A DNA stretch of 64,000 nucleotides, from contig CP053418.1 of assembly GCA_013127575.1 (NCBI GenBank), positions 2,356,001-2,420,000 on the forward strand, in the 5' to 3' direction. Source of the stretch: Ramlibacter terrae. GTDB taxonomy: Bacteria; Pseudomonadota; Gammaproteobacteria; Burkholderiales; Burkholderiaceae_C. The position numbers were made by a program, and so were the translations under genes. The number at the start of each line of letters is the position of its first letter. Position 1 is the stretch's first letter. The notes under the pieces were generated by a model. It was not told the DNA's origin. It did no database searches and saw only the letters and a program-made list of their open reading frames with translations. Shown here one piece after another: positions 7,926-54,473 of this stretch.

Positions 7926-9358
7926 TCACCCGTGCTTGATCGCCACGGTCTTCAGCGTGGTGAACCCGTACAGCGCCTCGAAGCCCTTTTCGCGCCCGTA
8001 GCCGGACGACTTGACGCCGCCGAAAGGCAGTTCCACGCCGCCGCCGGCGCCGTAGTTGTTGATGAACACCTGGCCGCTGTGCACGCGGCGCGCCATGCGC
8101 AGTTGGCGGCTGCCGTCCTGCGTCCAGACGCCGGCCACCAGGCCGAAGTGCGTGGAGTTGGCGAGTTCCACCGCGTGGTCCTCGTCGCGGAAGCTCATGG
8201 CGGCGAGCACCGGGCCGAAGACTTCCTCCTGCGCCAGCCGGTGCGTGACCGGCACGTCGCGCAGCAGCGTCGGCGCCTGGTAGAAGCCGGATTCCGGCGC
8301 TTCTTCGACCACCTGCCCCTCGGGCGACCATGCCGATGCCGGCATGCTGCGCGTCGGAGAGGAAGTCCCACACGCGCTGCTGCTGCGTCTGGCGGATCAG
8401 CGGGCCGACGTCCAGGTCCATCGCGGCCGGGCCGACGCGCAGGTTGGAGAAAGCGGTGCCCGGCGCTCCAGCAGCGGCTCGTAGATGCTTTGCTCCACCA
8501 GCAGGCGCGAGCCGGCGGAACAGGTCTGGCCGGCGTTCTGCACGATGGCGTTGATGACCACCGGCACGACCTCGTCGAGGTTGGCGTCGGCGAAGACGAT
8601 CTGCGGGCTCTTGCCACCGAGCTCCAGCGTCACGGGGCAATGGCGCTCGGCCGCCGCCTGCTGGATCAGCGTGCCCACGGTGGGGCTGCCGGTGAAGCTG
8701 ATGTGGTCGATGCCGGGATGCCGCGCCAGCGCGTCGCCGACTTCATGGCCGTAGCCGGTGACTATGTTGATCGCGCCGGCGGGGAAGCCCACTTCGGCCG
8801 CGAGTTGCGCCACGCGCAGCAGCGACAGGCAGGCGTCCTCCGAGGGCTTGACCACGCAGGTGTTGCCGGCGGCCAGCGCGCCGCCGACGCTGCGGCCGAA
8901 GATCTGCATCGGGTAGTTCGAGGGCACGACGTGGCCGGTGACGCCGTGGGGCTCGCGCCGGTGAGCACCGTGTAGCCCTGCTGGTAGGGCAGGGTCTCGC
9001 CGTGCAGCTTGTCGCAGGCGCCAGCGTAGAACTCGAAGTAGCGGGCCAGCGCCACGGCATCGGCGCGGGCCTGCTTGGTGGGCTTGCCGCAATCGCGCTG
9101 CTCGATGGCGGCGAGCTCCTCGGCGTGTTCGCCGAGCTTGAGCGACAGCCGCATCATCAGCCGGCCGCGCTCGGCCGCGCTCAGGCGGCTCCAGACGTTG
9201 TCGTAGCACTGGCGCGCCGCCTTCACCGCGGCGTCGATGTCCTCGGCGGTACCGCGCTGGATGGTGTCGAAGGGCTGGCCGTCCGAAGGATCGATGACGG
9301 GCAGGGTGCGCTCCGAAGACGAGCGCACGGCGGCATTGGCGATGAAATGGTGCTGCAT
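7926..9358 (-). CDS. NAD(P)-dependent aldehyde dehydrogenase
   Basis: An aldehyde dehydrogenase superfamily enzyme oxidising an aldehyde to an acid. The order of motifs is normal: PHGVTGHVVPSNYPMQIFGR, VKPSEDACLSLLRVAQLA, FTGSPTVGTLIQ, catalytic Glu in LELGGKSPQIVFADANLDE, catalytic Cys in NAGQTCSAGSRLLVEQ, EEVFGPVLAAMSF, and PFGGVKSSGYGREKG. Rebuilt length is about 478 residues. Breaks near 8460 and 8960 fit CCWGG; one near 8320 looks like a C-run loss. The substrate is not evident. The start is at ATG 9358; an alternative ATG lies at 9376. An inverted repeat (7-base arms) lies just upstream. Confidence 0.92.
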
Positions 9359-34159: not shown

Positions 34160-34272
34160 TGAGGTAAACGCGCCGAGCGGTGCCGAGCAATACCCATAGA
34201 ATAGCTCCCACAGAGGGGAAAGCCTGCCAACCCGGCGACGGCTGCACCGATCTGGCCCCATGAATGCCGAGC

Positions 34273-34301
34273 GAAAGTGCTTACATGGGCGCTTACATGG
34301 A
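34273..34301. repeat. Possible integrase arm site (left)
   Basis: GAAAGTGCTTACATGGGCGC then TTACATGG lies 114 bases inside the left att core and just before the integrase. A similar string GAAAGTGCTTACAGAGTGAT then TTACATGA lies at 58738-58765, 78 bases inside the right core. Same orientation, same spacing of two TTACA units. They may be arm-type integrase or directionality-factor sites. Confidence 0.45.
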
Positions 34302-34314
34302 AGCGGGGGCGACT

Positions 34315-35670
34315 ATGGCTAAGGTGAGACTCACGGCTCCAAAGGTGGAAGGCTTCACCTGTCCGCCCGGCAAGGATCAAGCATTCCTGTGGGACACCGA
34401 CACGCCCGGGCTCGGGCTTCGCGCCACGGCTGGCGGTGCGCGGTCGTTCATCTTTCAAAGCCGCTTCATGGGCAAGGCGCTACGCATCACGATAGGCGCG
34501 GCGGACGTTTGGCCGCTGAGCAACCGCATGGATCGGGTAGGGGCTGGCGGAAAGGTGGTGCAGGCCGGAGCGCGGGAAGAGGCGCGGCGGCTGCAATCGA
34601 TCATCGATGCTGGCCGCGATCCCCGGATGGTGCGGGCGGAAGTGCAGGCGGCGGACCATGCAACACGGGCGGATGGGCGACGGCAAGCCGTTACCGTAGG
34701 TGAAGCCGGGCGATCTACGGCCGACAGAAAAGCGCATTGGGGCGCTCGACACTACGCGGACCATGAAGCACTAACGCATGCGGGCGGCAGCAAGAAGAAG
34801 CGCGGCGAGGGGCCGACGATTGCCGGGCCGCTGGCCGAACTGATGCCGTTGAAGCTGTCGGACCTCGACTCCGAACGCCTGGAGCTGTGGGCGGCGAAGC
34901 AGGCAGCTACGCGACCGGCAAGGGCTCGCCCGGGGCTGCGGCTGGTCAAAGCCTTCCTAGGCTGGTGCGCAACGCAGAAGGACTACCGGGAAGCGGCGAA
35001 GACCGACGCGGCAAAGAGCAAGCGCATCCGGGAAAAGTTGGGCGATGCGGAGCGGCGGAACGTGGTTCTACAGAAGGAACAACTCCCCGCGTGGTTCTCT
35101 GCGGTGCAGGCGCTGCCTAATTCGGTGATTGCCGCTTACCTGCAATTCATGCTGCTGAACGGACCTCGACCCAATGAACCGCTGGCGCTCAAGTGGGAAG
35201 ACCTTAATTTCCAGTGGCGGACGATCAGCATTCGTGACAAGGTGGAGGGGGATCGAACAATCCCGATGACGCCCTACACCGCGCACCTACTGGCGGCGCT
35301 TCCTCGGCGCAATGAATGGGTGTTCTCAAGCCCGAAGAGTGCCAGCGGCAAACTCGTTGAGCACGGGGACGCGCACGACTCCGCATGCAAGGCGGCGGGT
35401 CTGCCGGTGGTGACGCTGCAGGGGCTGCGGAGATCCTTCGCTACGCTGTCGGAATGGGTGGAGACTCCGGCAGGCATTGCGGCACAAATTCAGGGGCACG
35501 CCCCGCAGGGCATTCGGGAGCAAAACTACGTCCGCCGTCCCGTCGATCTGCTGCGGGTATGGCACGACAAGATAGAAGCGTGGATGCTGGAACAGGCCGG
35601 GATAAAGTTCACTCCGCAGGCGCATCGTCTGCAATTGATTTCCGCATCGCAGGGGGCTTCGCTTGACTGA
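34315..35670 (+). CDS. Tyrosine-type site-specific integrase
   Basis: The C-terminal catalytic domain shows the R-(K)-H-x-x-R-(H/W)-Y order: NGPRPNEPLALKWEDLNFQW with the first Arg, LQGLRRSFATLSEWVETPAG in the second box and a Tyr in REQNYVRRPVDLL. The N-terminal DUF4102-type arm (LTAPKVEGFTCPPGKDQAFL, WDTDTPGLGLRATAGGA) is typical of tRNA-targeting integrases. Start ATG 34315 is preferred over 34264 because of a GGGGGC site and the direct repeats upstream. Residues near 130 look garbled (see findings). About 451 residues. Confidence 0.92.
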   Translation: MAKVRLTAPKVEGFTCPPGKDQAFLWDTDTPGLGLRATAGGARSFIFQSRFMGKALRITIGAADVWPLSNRMDRVGAGGKVVQAGAREEARRLQSIIDAGRDPRMVRAEVQAADHATRADGRRQAVTVGEAGRSTADRKAHWGARHYADHEALTHAGGSKKKRGEGPTIAGPLAELMPLKLSDLDSERLELWAAKQAATRPARARPGLRLVKAFLGWCATQKDYREAAKTDAAKSKRIREKLGDAERRNVVLQKEQLPAWFSAVQALPNSVIAAYLQFMLLNGPRPNEPLALKWEDLNFQWRTISIRDKVEGDRTIPMTPYTAHLLAALPRRNEWVFSSPKSASGKLVEHGDAHDSACKAAGLPVVTLQGLRRSFATLSEWVETPAGIAAQIQGHAPQGIREQNYVRRPVDLLRVWHDKIEAWMLEQAGIKFTPQAHRLQLISASQGASLD

Positions 35671-47280: not shown

Positions 47281-48970
47281 TGGCATACGACAAGAAATCG
47301 GCGCAGGCCGAACTGGACGCATACAAGCTGAAGACCTTTGGCGGGGCTGGTGCGACTGCATCGGCCAGCCCGACGATTCCGCAATCTGTGTTGGATCACT
47401 TCAACAAGAACAGCTTTGCGCTGAACGATTCAACTGGCATGTTTTCCACGCACATCGACGGCGGGAAGGTCTATCAGATGGTGCCGGGTGCATCGCCTGG
47501 TGACATGCGGGATAGCAGTGCTGGCGGCGGCGGGTTTATGTCGTATGACCCCCGGCGCAACGATGACGGCAGTATTCAAATGGGCGTGGGCGACCGCTAT
47601 AGCAAGTTCGACCTTGGCGGCAAGTACACGGGTCAGGGCGCATTCAAGGACGCAGGCTCAGGGCTCGACCTCGCGGCAATGGCGGCGCTTGCTGCGGTGA
47701 CGATGGGCGTTGGCCTTCCCGCGCTGATGGGCGCTGGCGCGGCCGGTGCTGGCGGTGGTGCTGCTGGCCTGGCGCTGCGGAGCTTGGCGCGGCCGGTGTA
47801 GGTGCTGCTGAAACTGCGGCGGGTGCTGGTCTGAGCTTCGGCACGGAATTGGGCGCTGCGGGTGTTGCCAACGCGGCGACGGTCGGAGCTGGCCTGACTC
47901 CCGAACTAATGGCCGCAACTATGGGCATGACGCCTGAAGCCTTCGCGGCGCTGGGTGCTGGTGGCATCGGCGCTGCTGGTGCGGCTGCTGGGATGGGCGC
48001 TGGAACTGCGGCGGCTAGCACTGCTTCGGGCGCTGGAAATGGCTTGCTGTCGCAGTTCGGGAACTACCTGACCACTGCTGACGGCATGAAGACGGCTCTT
48101 GGGGTGGCGAGTGCGCTGGGCGGCGCTGCTGGCGGCGCGAAGGGCGAAAGCGCAGAGAAGACCACTTCTACGGAGCTGCCGTCCCACCTCCAAGGGCCGG
48201 TTAGCAATCTCTTTGGACAAGCAACGGGTCTTCTTAACGCGCAACTACCGGAAACGATTGCACAGGGGCAAAGCACGGTGAAACAGGGACAGGGGCTGCT
48301 CGGCATGCCCATTGCTGGCAATGGTACTGGGCTCTTGAACATGCCCAAGAACAACGTTAAAGACCTCGCCAAGGTGAAGCTTGGAACGGTCAACTTCAAC
48401 AATAACCCCTACATGAAGGATGCGGAGGCTGCGCTAGGCATGCGGACGCGGGAGCTTCTGAGCGACAACAACCTACAGATTCAGGGGAATGCGGTTTCCT
48501 CGGGAGGGTTGGGCGGAAGTAGGCAGGGTCTGGCGCAAGGCATCGCGGCGGGGAAGGCGGCGGACTACCTGCAATCCAACTTGGCGGGCATGTATAGCAA
48601 CGCCCGGGAGAACCAGTCGAATCGCAACCTTACGCAGTACGGCATGGATCAGAACTACAACCTTGCCGGTCGCGGACAAAACATTCAGCTCCGTGGGCAG
48701 GATCTGAGCAAGTACCAAGGCGATCAACAGTTCTATGGGCAGCAGCGGCAACAGGATCAATCCGGCGCGGCGCTCGGTGCTGGCTTGGTGGCGCAGGGTC
48801 AGCAAGCTCCGTGGAACACGCTCGGCAACGCCAACGACATTTTCAAGAGCTATTTTGGCAACGGCAACCAGACGACTTCCGCGCAGAGTGGCGGCGGCTG
48901 GAGTGGCGCTCTCGGGGGCCTGATGCAAGGCATCGGGTACGGATCAAAGATGGGCTGGTGGGGGAGCTGA
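47280..48970 (+). CDS. Large phage structural protein, probable DNA-ejection protein 1
   Basis: Rebuilt about 563 residues. N-terminal MAYDKKSAQAELDAYKLKTF, then a Gly/Ala-rich, strongly hydrophobic middle (ALMGAGAAGAGGGAAG, AGAGLSFGTELGAAGVANAA), and a C-terminal Gln/Asn-rich helical part (GMYSNARENQSNRNLTQYGM, GQDLSKYQGDQQFYGQQRQQ). Such Ala/Gly-rich plus Asn/Gln-rich profiles typify podovirus internal virion or ejection proteins. One break near 47770 is a lost CCTGG. Confidence 0.6.
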
Positions 48971-53653: not shown

Positions 53654-54385
53654 ATGGCTAAAGACGACGACACGGGGAAGCCTCGGACGGCGATTCAGAT
53701 TCCCGAAGACGAGAAGCGCGGACAACATCAACAAATGGCCGATGTGAGCCTATCGAGCACGGCGAACGGCGGCATTGCTGCGATGCGATGGGCGCAAAAG
53801 GGCTTTGGCGAGATTGGCATTAACGAGGCCATTACGGTCGTTCAGGAGCGGGCCGACGCTGCGGCATCCGGCGACCTCGCGGCGGCGAAGGGCATGCTGA
53901 TTTCTCAGGCGAGCGTGCTGGATGCGGTGTTTAACCAACTTGCCAGCCGGGCGGCGACCCTGCTCAAGGTGAAGCCCGATGGCTCTTGGTCCTGTGAGAC
54001 GGAGGCGATGGAATCGATGATGCGAATTGCCTTCAAGGCGCAGGGCCAGTGCCGGGCAACCCTCCAGACGCTGGGCGAGCTGGTCAACCCGCGATCCGTG
54101 GCGTTCATCAAGCAGGCTCCCGGCTCGCAAGCCAACGTGACGGCGGGGGCGCAACAGGTGAACAACGGGCAGCAGGGCGGGACCGCTGCGCCTGCGAGAG
54201 ATTCGGAAAAGAGAGCAAACGAACTTTTGGAGGCAATCCCTAGTGAACAGCTGGACCTTGGAACGCAAGCAACGACAGGCAGAGCTAATCCGAAGCTGGA
54301 AGCCGTGGGAGCGGTCAACCGGGCCGCAGTCGGAAGCGGGGAAGTCCGCCAGCTCCCGAAACGCCACAAAGCACGGGCAGCGTAG
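53654..54385 (+). CDS. Conserved element protein, first member of an overprinted pair
   Basis: 243 residues, intact: MLISQASVLDAVFNQLASRA, MRIAFKAQGQCRATLQTLGE, LVNPRSVAFIKQAPGSQANV, AQQVNNGQQG, then LEAVGAVNRA. I recall (from memory) a family of similar proteins in proteobacterial elements, with the order NxLxxRA...QxQCRATLxTL...QxxxxGPQQVNN. It is followed by, and overlaps, a second gene in another frame. Function unknown. Confidence 0.7.
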   Translation: MAKDDDTGKPRTAIQIPEDEKRGQHQQMADVSLSSTANGGIAAMRWAQKGFGEIGINEAITVVQERADAAASGDLAAAKGMLISQASVLDAVFNQLASRAATLLKVKPDGSWSCETEAMESMMRIAFKAQGQCRATLQTLGELVNPRSVAFIKQAPGSQANVTAGAQQVNNGQQGGTAAPARDSEKRANELLEAIPSEQLDLGTQATTGRANPKLEAVGAVNRAAVGSGEVRQLPKRHKARAA

Positions 54386-54473
54386 CGCGGAAGCCATAGC
54401 GGACCGGCGCGAACTGTCGGCAATGCTGGCGACGTTCCGCGATCAGCGGGCTTCGATCTGCTCGGGCGGCTGA
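54243..54473 (+). CDS. Conserved element protein, second member of an overprinted pair
   Basis: 76 residues: MNSWTLERKQRQAELIRSWK, PWERSTGPQSEAGKSASSRN, ATKHGQRSAEAIADRRELSA. Starts with GTG inside the previous gene and shares 143 bases with it in a different frame. AxLIRxWxPWxxSTGPxxxxGKxxSSRNAxKxGxRS is recalled from related elements. Function unknown. Confidence 0.65.
   Translation: MNSWTLERKQRQAELIRSWKPWERSTGPQSEAGKSASSRNATKHGQRSAEAIADRRELSAMLATFRDQRASICSGG

Follow-up and report, generated by a model that had tools for sequence, protein, structure and literature searches.

The gene pair considered here was found in the window, that is, the whole 64-kb stretch of DNA that was analysed, in which a small second gene begins inside the 3′ part of a longer first gene. 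The features of the locus and of the region upstream are as follows:

34264..35670, + strand: tyrosine integrase, 18 kb upstream of the pair (phrog_1, E 1.9e-21; Pfam PF00589, E 4.2e-9)
47849..48970, + strand: phage protein resembling DNA ejection proteins, located 5′ of the pair (phrog_4287, E 1.4e-10)
53654..54385, + strand: gene 1, an ORF from ATG to TAG of 243 aa, with its last 47 residues inside the overlap; relatives found
54222..54233, + strand: Shine-Dalgarno-like site for gene 2, AACTTTTGGAGG, inside the NELLE codons of gene 1
54243..54473, + strand: gene 2, an ORF from GTG to TGA of 76 aa, coding for a small basic protein predicted to be helical; relatives found
54243..54385, + strand: 143-nt overlap, probably dual-coding, in which gene 2 is read in +1 phase with respect to gene 1; submitted to constraint tests
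54296..54326, + strand: doubly read motif, LEAVGAVNRA in gene 1 (54296-54325) and WKPWERSTGP in gene 2 (54297-54326), from the sequence and alignments

As read from the sequence, the GGAGG of the putative ribosome-binding site lies at 54229-54233, 9 nt 5′ of the gene 2 GTG. The last 88 nt of gene 2 extend beyond the gene 1 stop, and the conservation of the gene 2 family, whose members share the motif W-x-P-W-x-x-S-T-G-P...GK...N-A-x-K-x-G, continues there. A previous sequence-only reading of this locus had proposed that the 143 bases encode both motifs in different frames, and the open reading frames and their coordinates confirmed it, as did the scarcity of stops in the gene 1 frame among relatives that is described below. 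Along the window (1-64000), many ORFs seemed to be broken across frames, and the genome, a single contig of 5.28 Mb, was scored 63.7% complete; the assembly of the window is probably indel-rich.

The pair probably lies in the mobile element of the upstream integrase, and this region of the window is probably a prophage. Among 53 named dual loci with 6 kb of upstream sequence, same-strand genes for a tyrosine integrase were found in 44, for DUF3987/Toprim proteins in 36, and for AlpA in 15, with integrase and DUF3987 together in 33; the upstream gene clusters were named from one representative each. Restriction-like genes, named by the appearance of their sequences, were present near the pair in a few loci. 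The pair is thus common to prophage-like regions, integrase/DUF3987 islands, and plasmids. Satellites of the P4-like and PICI types carry an integrase, AlpA, and a primase module without structural genes, and depend on a helper. The upstream gene content of many named loci resembles that of such integrase-AlpA-primase islands (P4-like, PICIs, PICMIs), whereas the window, with its integrase and DNA ejection-like gene, looks more prophage-like.

The distribution of the pair was followed from both genes. In 99 genomes around the species of the window, gene 1 had 11 matches, of which eight were clear (E below 1e-14, the genome of the window counted), and in all eight gene 2 overlapped it in the same phase; weak gene 1 matches at three loci (L009, L010, and L011; E 2e-4 to 6e-4) were unconfirmed by the core model. 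Gene 1 was rare in wider samples, being found in 10 of 369 genomes class-wide and in 5 of 398 phylum-wide, again with the genome of the window counted. Viral contigs yielded 27 gene 1 loci, some of them near-identical, of which 26 had gene 2 in +1 phase and the 27th stops at the end of its contig; in 25 of those 26, gene 1 ran on for more than 90 nt past the gene 2 model start. GenBank phage records gave no match to the queries tried. Gene 1 copies with no gene 2 nearby comprised three loci of one genome in which gene 1 is fragmented (L091, L094, and L096) and two at contig ends (L053 and L093).

With gene 2 as the query, 151 loci were confirmed in genome contigs and 80 named loci were retained, the carriers including Pseudomonas, Methylobacter, Methylotenera, Marinobacter, Acidovorax, Nitrosomonas, Aromatoleum, Arenimonas, and others. 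From the gene 2 records, 129 had a distinct sequence and a score of at least 50, 126 a usable start, and 115 were left after those at least 95% identical were dropped. Gene 1 was detected in 100 of these 115 non-redundant loci, and in 98 of the 100 the two genes were in +1 phase. The overlap, including the gene 1 stop, had a median of 104 nt and reached at least 60 nt in 94 of the 100 dual loci. One gene 2 copy (L154) was seen in a MAG labelled Chthoniobacterales, with gene 1 undetected, and reflects either a transfer or a mis-binned contig.

Plasmids extended this range to a second phylum. Only 5 of 72,556 plasmid records carried gene 2, and the gene 1 model matched all five. The two genes overlapped in four of them, by ~74 nt in one Polaromonas plasmid, ~185 in Fischerella, ~113 in Pseudanabaena, and ~128 in Anabaena, these lengths being a reading of starts and annotated ends. 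The proteobacterial gene 1 model matched the cyanobacterial plasmids at E 1e-9 to 1e-14, and a profile comparison indicated that the gene 1 families of the two phyla are homologous (99.4% probability, E 6.7e-22); the cyanobacterial gene 1 had no match in the viral contigs. Since the carriers are mobile, the presence of the pair in two phyla speaks for age or transfer and not for vertical descent. The sequence-only view that two conserved families are overprinted by an old overlap was borne out by the 94 non-redundant loci with at least 60 nt and by the three cyanobacterial plasmids. The distributed gene tables, which are stated by their source to be incomplete, omit gene 2 in four plasmids (L177, L178, L179, and L181) despite its open, conserved frame; in the fifth (L180) it is listed, but with a start ~75 nt 3′ of that proposed in this analysis.

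The two predicted proteins differ in order. The model of gene 2 was nearly all helix, with a mean pLDDT of 88, and the family had a median net charge of +8.5. The model of gene 1 comprised a helical core at about residues 24-144, with a pLDDT of about 90 or more in most of it, followed from about residue 151 by a stretch of pLDDT 47-67 without secondary structure, in which the overlapped residues 197-243 fall. Such an arrangement, in which a disordered tail lies over an ordered protein, is common among overlapping genes. Neither protein had a significant match in Pfam, PHROGs, or NCBIfam (the best, at E 0.049, came from the members of the gene 2 alignment), a PDB sequence search gave nothing useful for either, and Foldseek found no match in BFVD at E 0.001 or less. 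Structure comparison with the PDB returned no chains for gene 2, an absence that excludes no family, and for the gene 1 core many unrelated helical hairpins, the best with Z 9.9 over 69 residues, which likewise excludes no family. Among these hairpins was TerS of phage G20c (Z 7.7 over 72 residues, rmsd 3.2); a relation to small terminases found no PHROG or Pfam match. Among the papers listed by the literature searches, no title or abstract opening named the pair, and a literal search for the motif had no match.

The second half of gene 2 shares the motif STGPxTxxGKxxSSxNAxxHG with a set of larger proteins (hhalign 97.5%, from a three-protein alignment), although in those proteins the motif usually lies near the N-terminus. 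They recur elsewhere in the phylum (L199-L218), in part within phage-like regions; when five were scanned, one matched phrog_26872, of unknown function, and none matched Pfam. A fusion of gene 1 and gene 2 in these larger proteins was considered and rejected, as the gene 2 motif was present and gene 1 was absent (hhalign 0.6%, three proteins). Since the motif occurs in larger proteins, the second half of gene 2 has a life outside the pair. This occurrence elsewhere, the predicted disorder of the gene 1 tail, and the absence of that tail in three pair-carrying loci described below (L113, L156, and L177) suggest an extension of gene 1 across gene 2 and not the reverse; the gene 1 tail is probably the overprinted part.

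The start of gene 2 carries signals of its own. Taking in each locus the start nearest to the model start, 97 of 100 loci began with ATG and 3 with GTG, and 90 of 100 had a Shine-Dalgarno-like tetramer 3-13 nt upstream, compared with 8.6% for positions drawn at random within these loci. This site falls within the NELLE codons of gene 1, where the first Leu codon was CTA in 71 of 87 loci (6.8 expected) and CTT in the other 16, and the second was TTG in 78 of 87 (13.7 expected). This choice of Leu codons indicates that AACTATTGGAG is held at the nucleotide level. The start region was also slightly less structured than its synonymous encodings (mean z 0.67; 79% of 75 loci), and some of the codon bias among the earliest codons of gene 2 may stem from this weak mRNA structure. 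RNAalifold gave no consensus RNA fold for the 75 alignable loci.

The gene 1 tail may look conserved merely because gene 2 is. The third codon position of gene 2 is the first of gene 1, so that a change that is silent in gene 2 will almost always alter gene 1, and the gene 2 motifs WTxER and WxPWxxSTG dictate much of the gene 1 motifs LDxG and LEAVGxxxR. The conservation of both motifs, which the sequence-only reading had put forward, was therefore upheld as an observation but was insufficient alone as evidence, the Trp and Pro codons of gene 2 forcing most of the LEAVG-like motif. A null was accordingly built by re-encoding each gene 2 at random with synonymous codons, drawn according to the codon usage of long ORFs at that locus. 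As the loci share ancestry, the simulated P values are inexact. The tests restricted to an open gene 1 frame (constraint, third position, RNA, third frame, and tail similarity) used fewer loci, and L113 was left out of the analysis of loci under 65% identity and of tail similarity.

Against this null, stops in the gene 1 frame were strongly avoided. The frame was closed before alignment column 35, the codon after WxPWE and some 24 codons into gene 2, in only 5 of 100 loci, with 47.6 expected, and among loci under 65% nucleotide identity such early stops occurred in 4 of 50, with 25.8 expected. At the level of single codons, T-ending codons that make a stop in gene 1 numbered 3 of 163 in columns 10-18 (29.0 expected) and 2 of 144 in columns 19-33 (30.9 expected), or 5 of 307 against 59.9 for columns 10-33 pooled, over the 100 loci. 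The deficit vanished in columns 34-52, where gene 1 usually ends (114 of 419, 86.8 expected), and beyond column 52 the count was 110 of 528 (132.9 expected). T was scarce also where it makes no stop, with 64 of 720 in columns 19-33 (144.6 expected), 132 of 1021 in columns 34-52 (218.0 expected), and 269 of 1278 beyond column 52 (290.6 expected). At column 12, where T gives Leu in gene 1, it was tolerated (21 of 94 against 20 expected). The third frame, taken as a control, showed no avoidance, with 83 stops observed and 57.4 simulated in 94 loci preselected for an open gene 1 frame, which indicates that stop avoidance is specific to the frame of gene 1. The stops of gene 1 clustered instead at column 45, in the Gly-Lys codons of gene 2, where 33 of the 64 loci still open there were closed; the null closes 18% of the loci reaching this column, or 11.

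Fourfold sites that are first positions of gene 1 were 78% purine in columns 19-33 (46% expected), and the corresponding sites beyond column 53 were 58% purine (47% expected); since some of the bias persists beyond the overlap, it is partly not due to gene 1. In 60 diverse open loci, the mean identity of the gene 1 tail over columns 12-33 was 0.379, and 100 simulated sets held open gave a mean of 0.315 and a maximum of 0.329. The similarity of the tail is mostly a shadow of gene 2, and a clear part of it is not. The first guess made for this overlap, a conservation by shadow only in which Trp and Pro codons dictate LEAVG, proved insufficient in the stop, third-position, and simulation tests.

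The strength of selection was then estimated by sorting changes by what they do in each of the two frames. This follows the approach of OLGenie (PMC7531306), but with a simplified and uncorrected count on independent pairs (31, 44, and 44 in three identity bins). Within the overlap, gene 2 gave pNN/pNS ratios of 0.147, 0.185, and 0.238 and pSN/pSS ratios of 0.121, 0.357, and 0.434, all with intervals below 1. For the gene 1 tail, pNN/pSN was 0.788 in the closest pairs (0.594-1.058), 0.744 (0.598-0.921), and 0.690 (0.583-0.812), and pNS/pSS, which counts 17-21 sites, was 0.663, 1.436, and 1.254, every interval including 1. The third-position divergence of gene 2, taken as overlap over downstream, was 0.86, 0.66, 0.87, and 0.87 in four protein-identity bins, with the interval below 1 in the second bin only; an alternative pairing by identity within the overlap itself (ratios 0.61, 0.89, and 0.99) was biased and was replaced. 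Gene 2 is strongly constrained, and the gene 1 tail is weakly constrained in its amino acids and strongly held open. Constraint in both frames, which the sequence-only reading had made a point to check, was thus strong for gene 2 but weak for the gene 1 tail, whose second measure is indistinguishable from 1. As to what is expected of a functional same-strand overlap, purifying selection in the downstream frame and conservation of the phase were both found, and selection in the upstream frame was indicated by stop avoidance together with the excess of tail similarity.

Cases of one gene lacking the overlapping partner frame, which had been held to speak against an ancient overlap, were looked for, and a minority exists in the form of non-overlapping pairs, early gene 1 stops, and gene 2 copies without a detected gene 1. 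In a Rubrivivax MAG (L113) and an Azohydromonas isolate (L156), the gene 1 core has another end, 68 and 14 nt, respectively, before the gene 2 model start, and the genes do not overlap. In the Polaromonas plasmid pH8NP1 (L177, 7883-8919), gene 1 retains NKLL but has another end beyond it, the Shine-Dalgarno stretch has changed, a small ORF with a hydrophobic start (8494-8700) lies between the genes, and gene 2 runs from 8704, so that the overlap is gone. Frame 1 over gene 2 closes within 11 nt in L156 and 20 nt in L177, as it should if nothing but an overlapping gene 1 holds this frame open, and stays open in L113. The existence of three pair loci without overlap means that the overlap is not indispensable and can be lost. 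Early stops of gene 1 were found in four further loci (L141, L027, L099, and L072). In a Methylotenera MAG (L098, ~7975-8207), C-terminal residues of gene 1, only the last 31 positions of its model, are fused in frame to gene 2. Gene 2 occurred without a detected gene 1 in 15 of 115 loci; 12 of the 15 were still open in frame 1 past column 35, and some of the 15 lie at contig ends. At least some of these have the appearance of losses, of broken copies, or of a gene 1 that escaped detection, and not of an older state.

Taken together, these results favour, with a probability of roughly 0.8, the reading that both frames of the 143 bases truly code for protein, in a gene pair of mobile elements from which two proteins would be produced from one mRNA by internal initiation. 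The one mRNA would be read twice. Ribosomes entering at the gene 1 start would make the helical core and then the disordered tail across the first half of gene 2, stopping shortly past its WxPWxxSTG motif, and other ribosomes would start at the gene 2 site inside gene 1 (GGAGG followed by AUG or GUG) and make the small basic helical protein. The gene 1 tail would tolerate most changes that gene 2 tolerates, being kept open and biased in composition wherever the genes overlap. Both proteins would be made, a point on which the conservation of the Shine-Dalgarno-like site bears, and gene 2 would be translated with or through gene 1 by coupling. The two products would serve the element together, perhaps by binding nucleic acid, in keeping with the charge of gene 2.

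The dual-coding reading has to be weighed against the view that only gene 2 is real and the tail of gene 1 merely reads through it, with a forced motif and no function. The far stronger constraint on gene 2, the 0.315 of 0.379 of tail identity that the gene 2 null yields alone, and the predicted disorder of a tail that is missing or cut in some loci all fit such a functionless tail, which we nonetheless regard as unlikely, since it leaves unexplained a more than ninefold avoidance of frame-1 stops (5 of 100 against 47.6) that the third frame does not share, a tail similarity above all 100 simulations, and a scarcity of T even where no stop would result (64 of 720 against 144.6 in columns 19-33). 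A constraint on the nucleotides themselves, through a cis-acting DNA or RNA element such as start accessibility, an RNA fold, or a packaging or attachment site that drives codon choice, has a smaller chance still. It would account for the retention of AACTATTGGAG with rare Leu codons and for the reduced structure of the start region, but RNAalifold returned no consensus structure in 75 loci, the pattern tracks the codons of gene 1 (stop-making T nearly absent, Leu-giving T tolerated), and the signal weakens past the gene 1 stop.

Programmed frameshifting, joining both genes into one long product, is suggested by the in-frame fusion in the Methylotenera MAG; no more than the final 31 positions of the gene 1 model are present at that locus, however, and a start codon with a well-placed Shine-Dalgarno-like site precedes gene 2 in 90 of 100 loci, which makes a joined product very improbable. 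That the overlap is an artefact of gene prediction or a sequencing error might be suspected from the possibly indel-rich assembly of the window (63.7% complete, one 5.28-Mb contig) and from the survey of Palleja et al. (2008), in which none of the 715 co-directional prokaryotic overlaps of more than 60 bp that were analysed was real, errors being the usual cause (PMC2478687). The same phase and position recur, however, in isolates, MAGs, viral contigs, and plasmids that were assembled independently, and an artefact is hardly credible.

Within the dual-coding reading, a stronger version is doubtful. In it, the overlap itself would be a working part instead of a relic of compression, reading through the gene 2 start setting the ratio of two subunits of one complex, and the gene 1 tail and gene 2 would have been held together since before the pair passed between Proteobacteria and Cyanobacteria. 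The Polaromonas plasmid pH8NP1, as the third carrier of the pair without overlap, makes this less likely. If it were true, cellular genomes and plasmids would harbour a co-directional overlap of ~100 nt that is both deep and functional, in a class for which 0 of 715 were reported as real. The separated pairs (L113, L156, and L177) and the early-stop loci amount to natural experiments on the purpose of the overlap, and L177 is a natural uncoupling of gene 1 and gene 2.

Long same-strand overlaps are rare in bacteria and are usually treated as annotation errors. The present pair is unusually widespread. In the survey of Palleja et al., the longest overlap accepted as real was that of holD-rimI in Enterobacteria, which is conserved and co-directional and measures 32-56 bp (PMC2478687). 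The present one is likewise conserved and co-directional, but about twice as long (median 104 nt), and unlike holD-rimI it spans two phyla and concerns mobile genes. The pair is a counter-example, with many homologues, to the rule of that survey, and the cost of treating overlaps as errors can be seen in the plasmid gene tables, which list gene 2 once in five records and with a later start. As a change that is silent in one frame alters an amino acid in the other, both directions of the frame conflict can be measured here. The compositional null for phase bias proposed by Sabath et al. (PMC2542354) bears on the origin of overlaps and not on their conservation.

In phages, same-strand overlaps as long as this one are known, spanins being an example. 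In the spanins Rz/Rz1, the downstream gene codes for a lipoprotein with a lipobox and the upstream gene for an inner-membrane anchor. Two-component spanin genes are embedded in lambda (Rz/Rz1) and overlapped in P2, and the published account describes the downstream gene as often lying in the +1 frame and often missed by annotation (PMC6139136). The present pair is similarly a long same-strand overlap of phage type in the +1 frame, with a second gene missed by annotation. By eye, however, no lipobox and no obvious transmembrane segment could be recognised in either protein: the single Cys of gene 2 is residue 73 of 76, and gene 1 has no N-terminal hydrophobic stretch. The PHROG and Pfam scans gave no spanin match for either protein, and the pair comes after integrase/DUF3987 modules or phage genes. 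An antisense ORF across gene 2 was open and similar in 19 loci, and is probably a by-product of the gene 2 codons.
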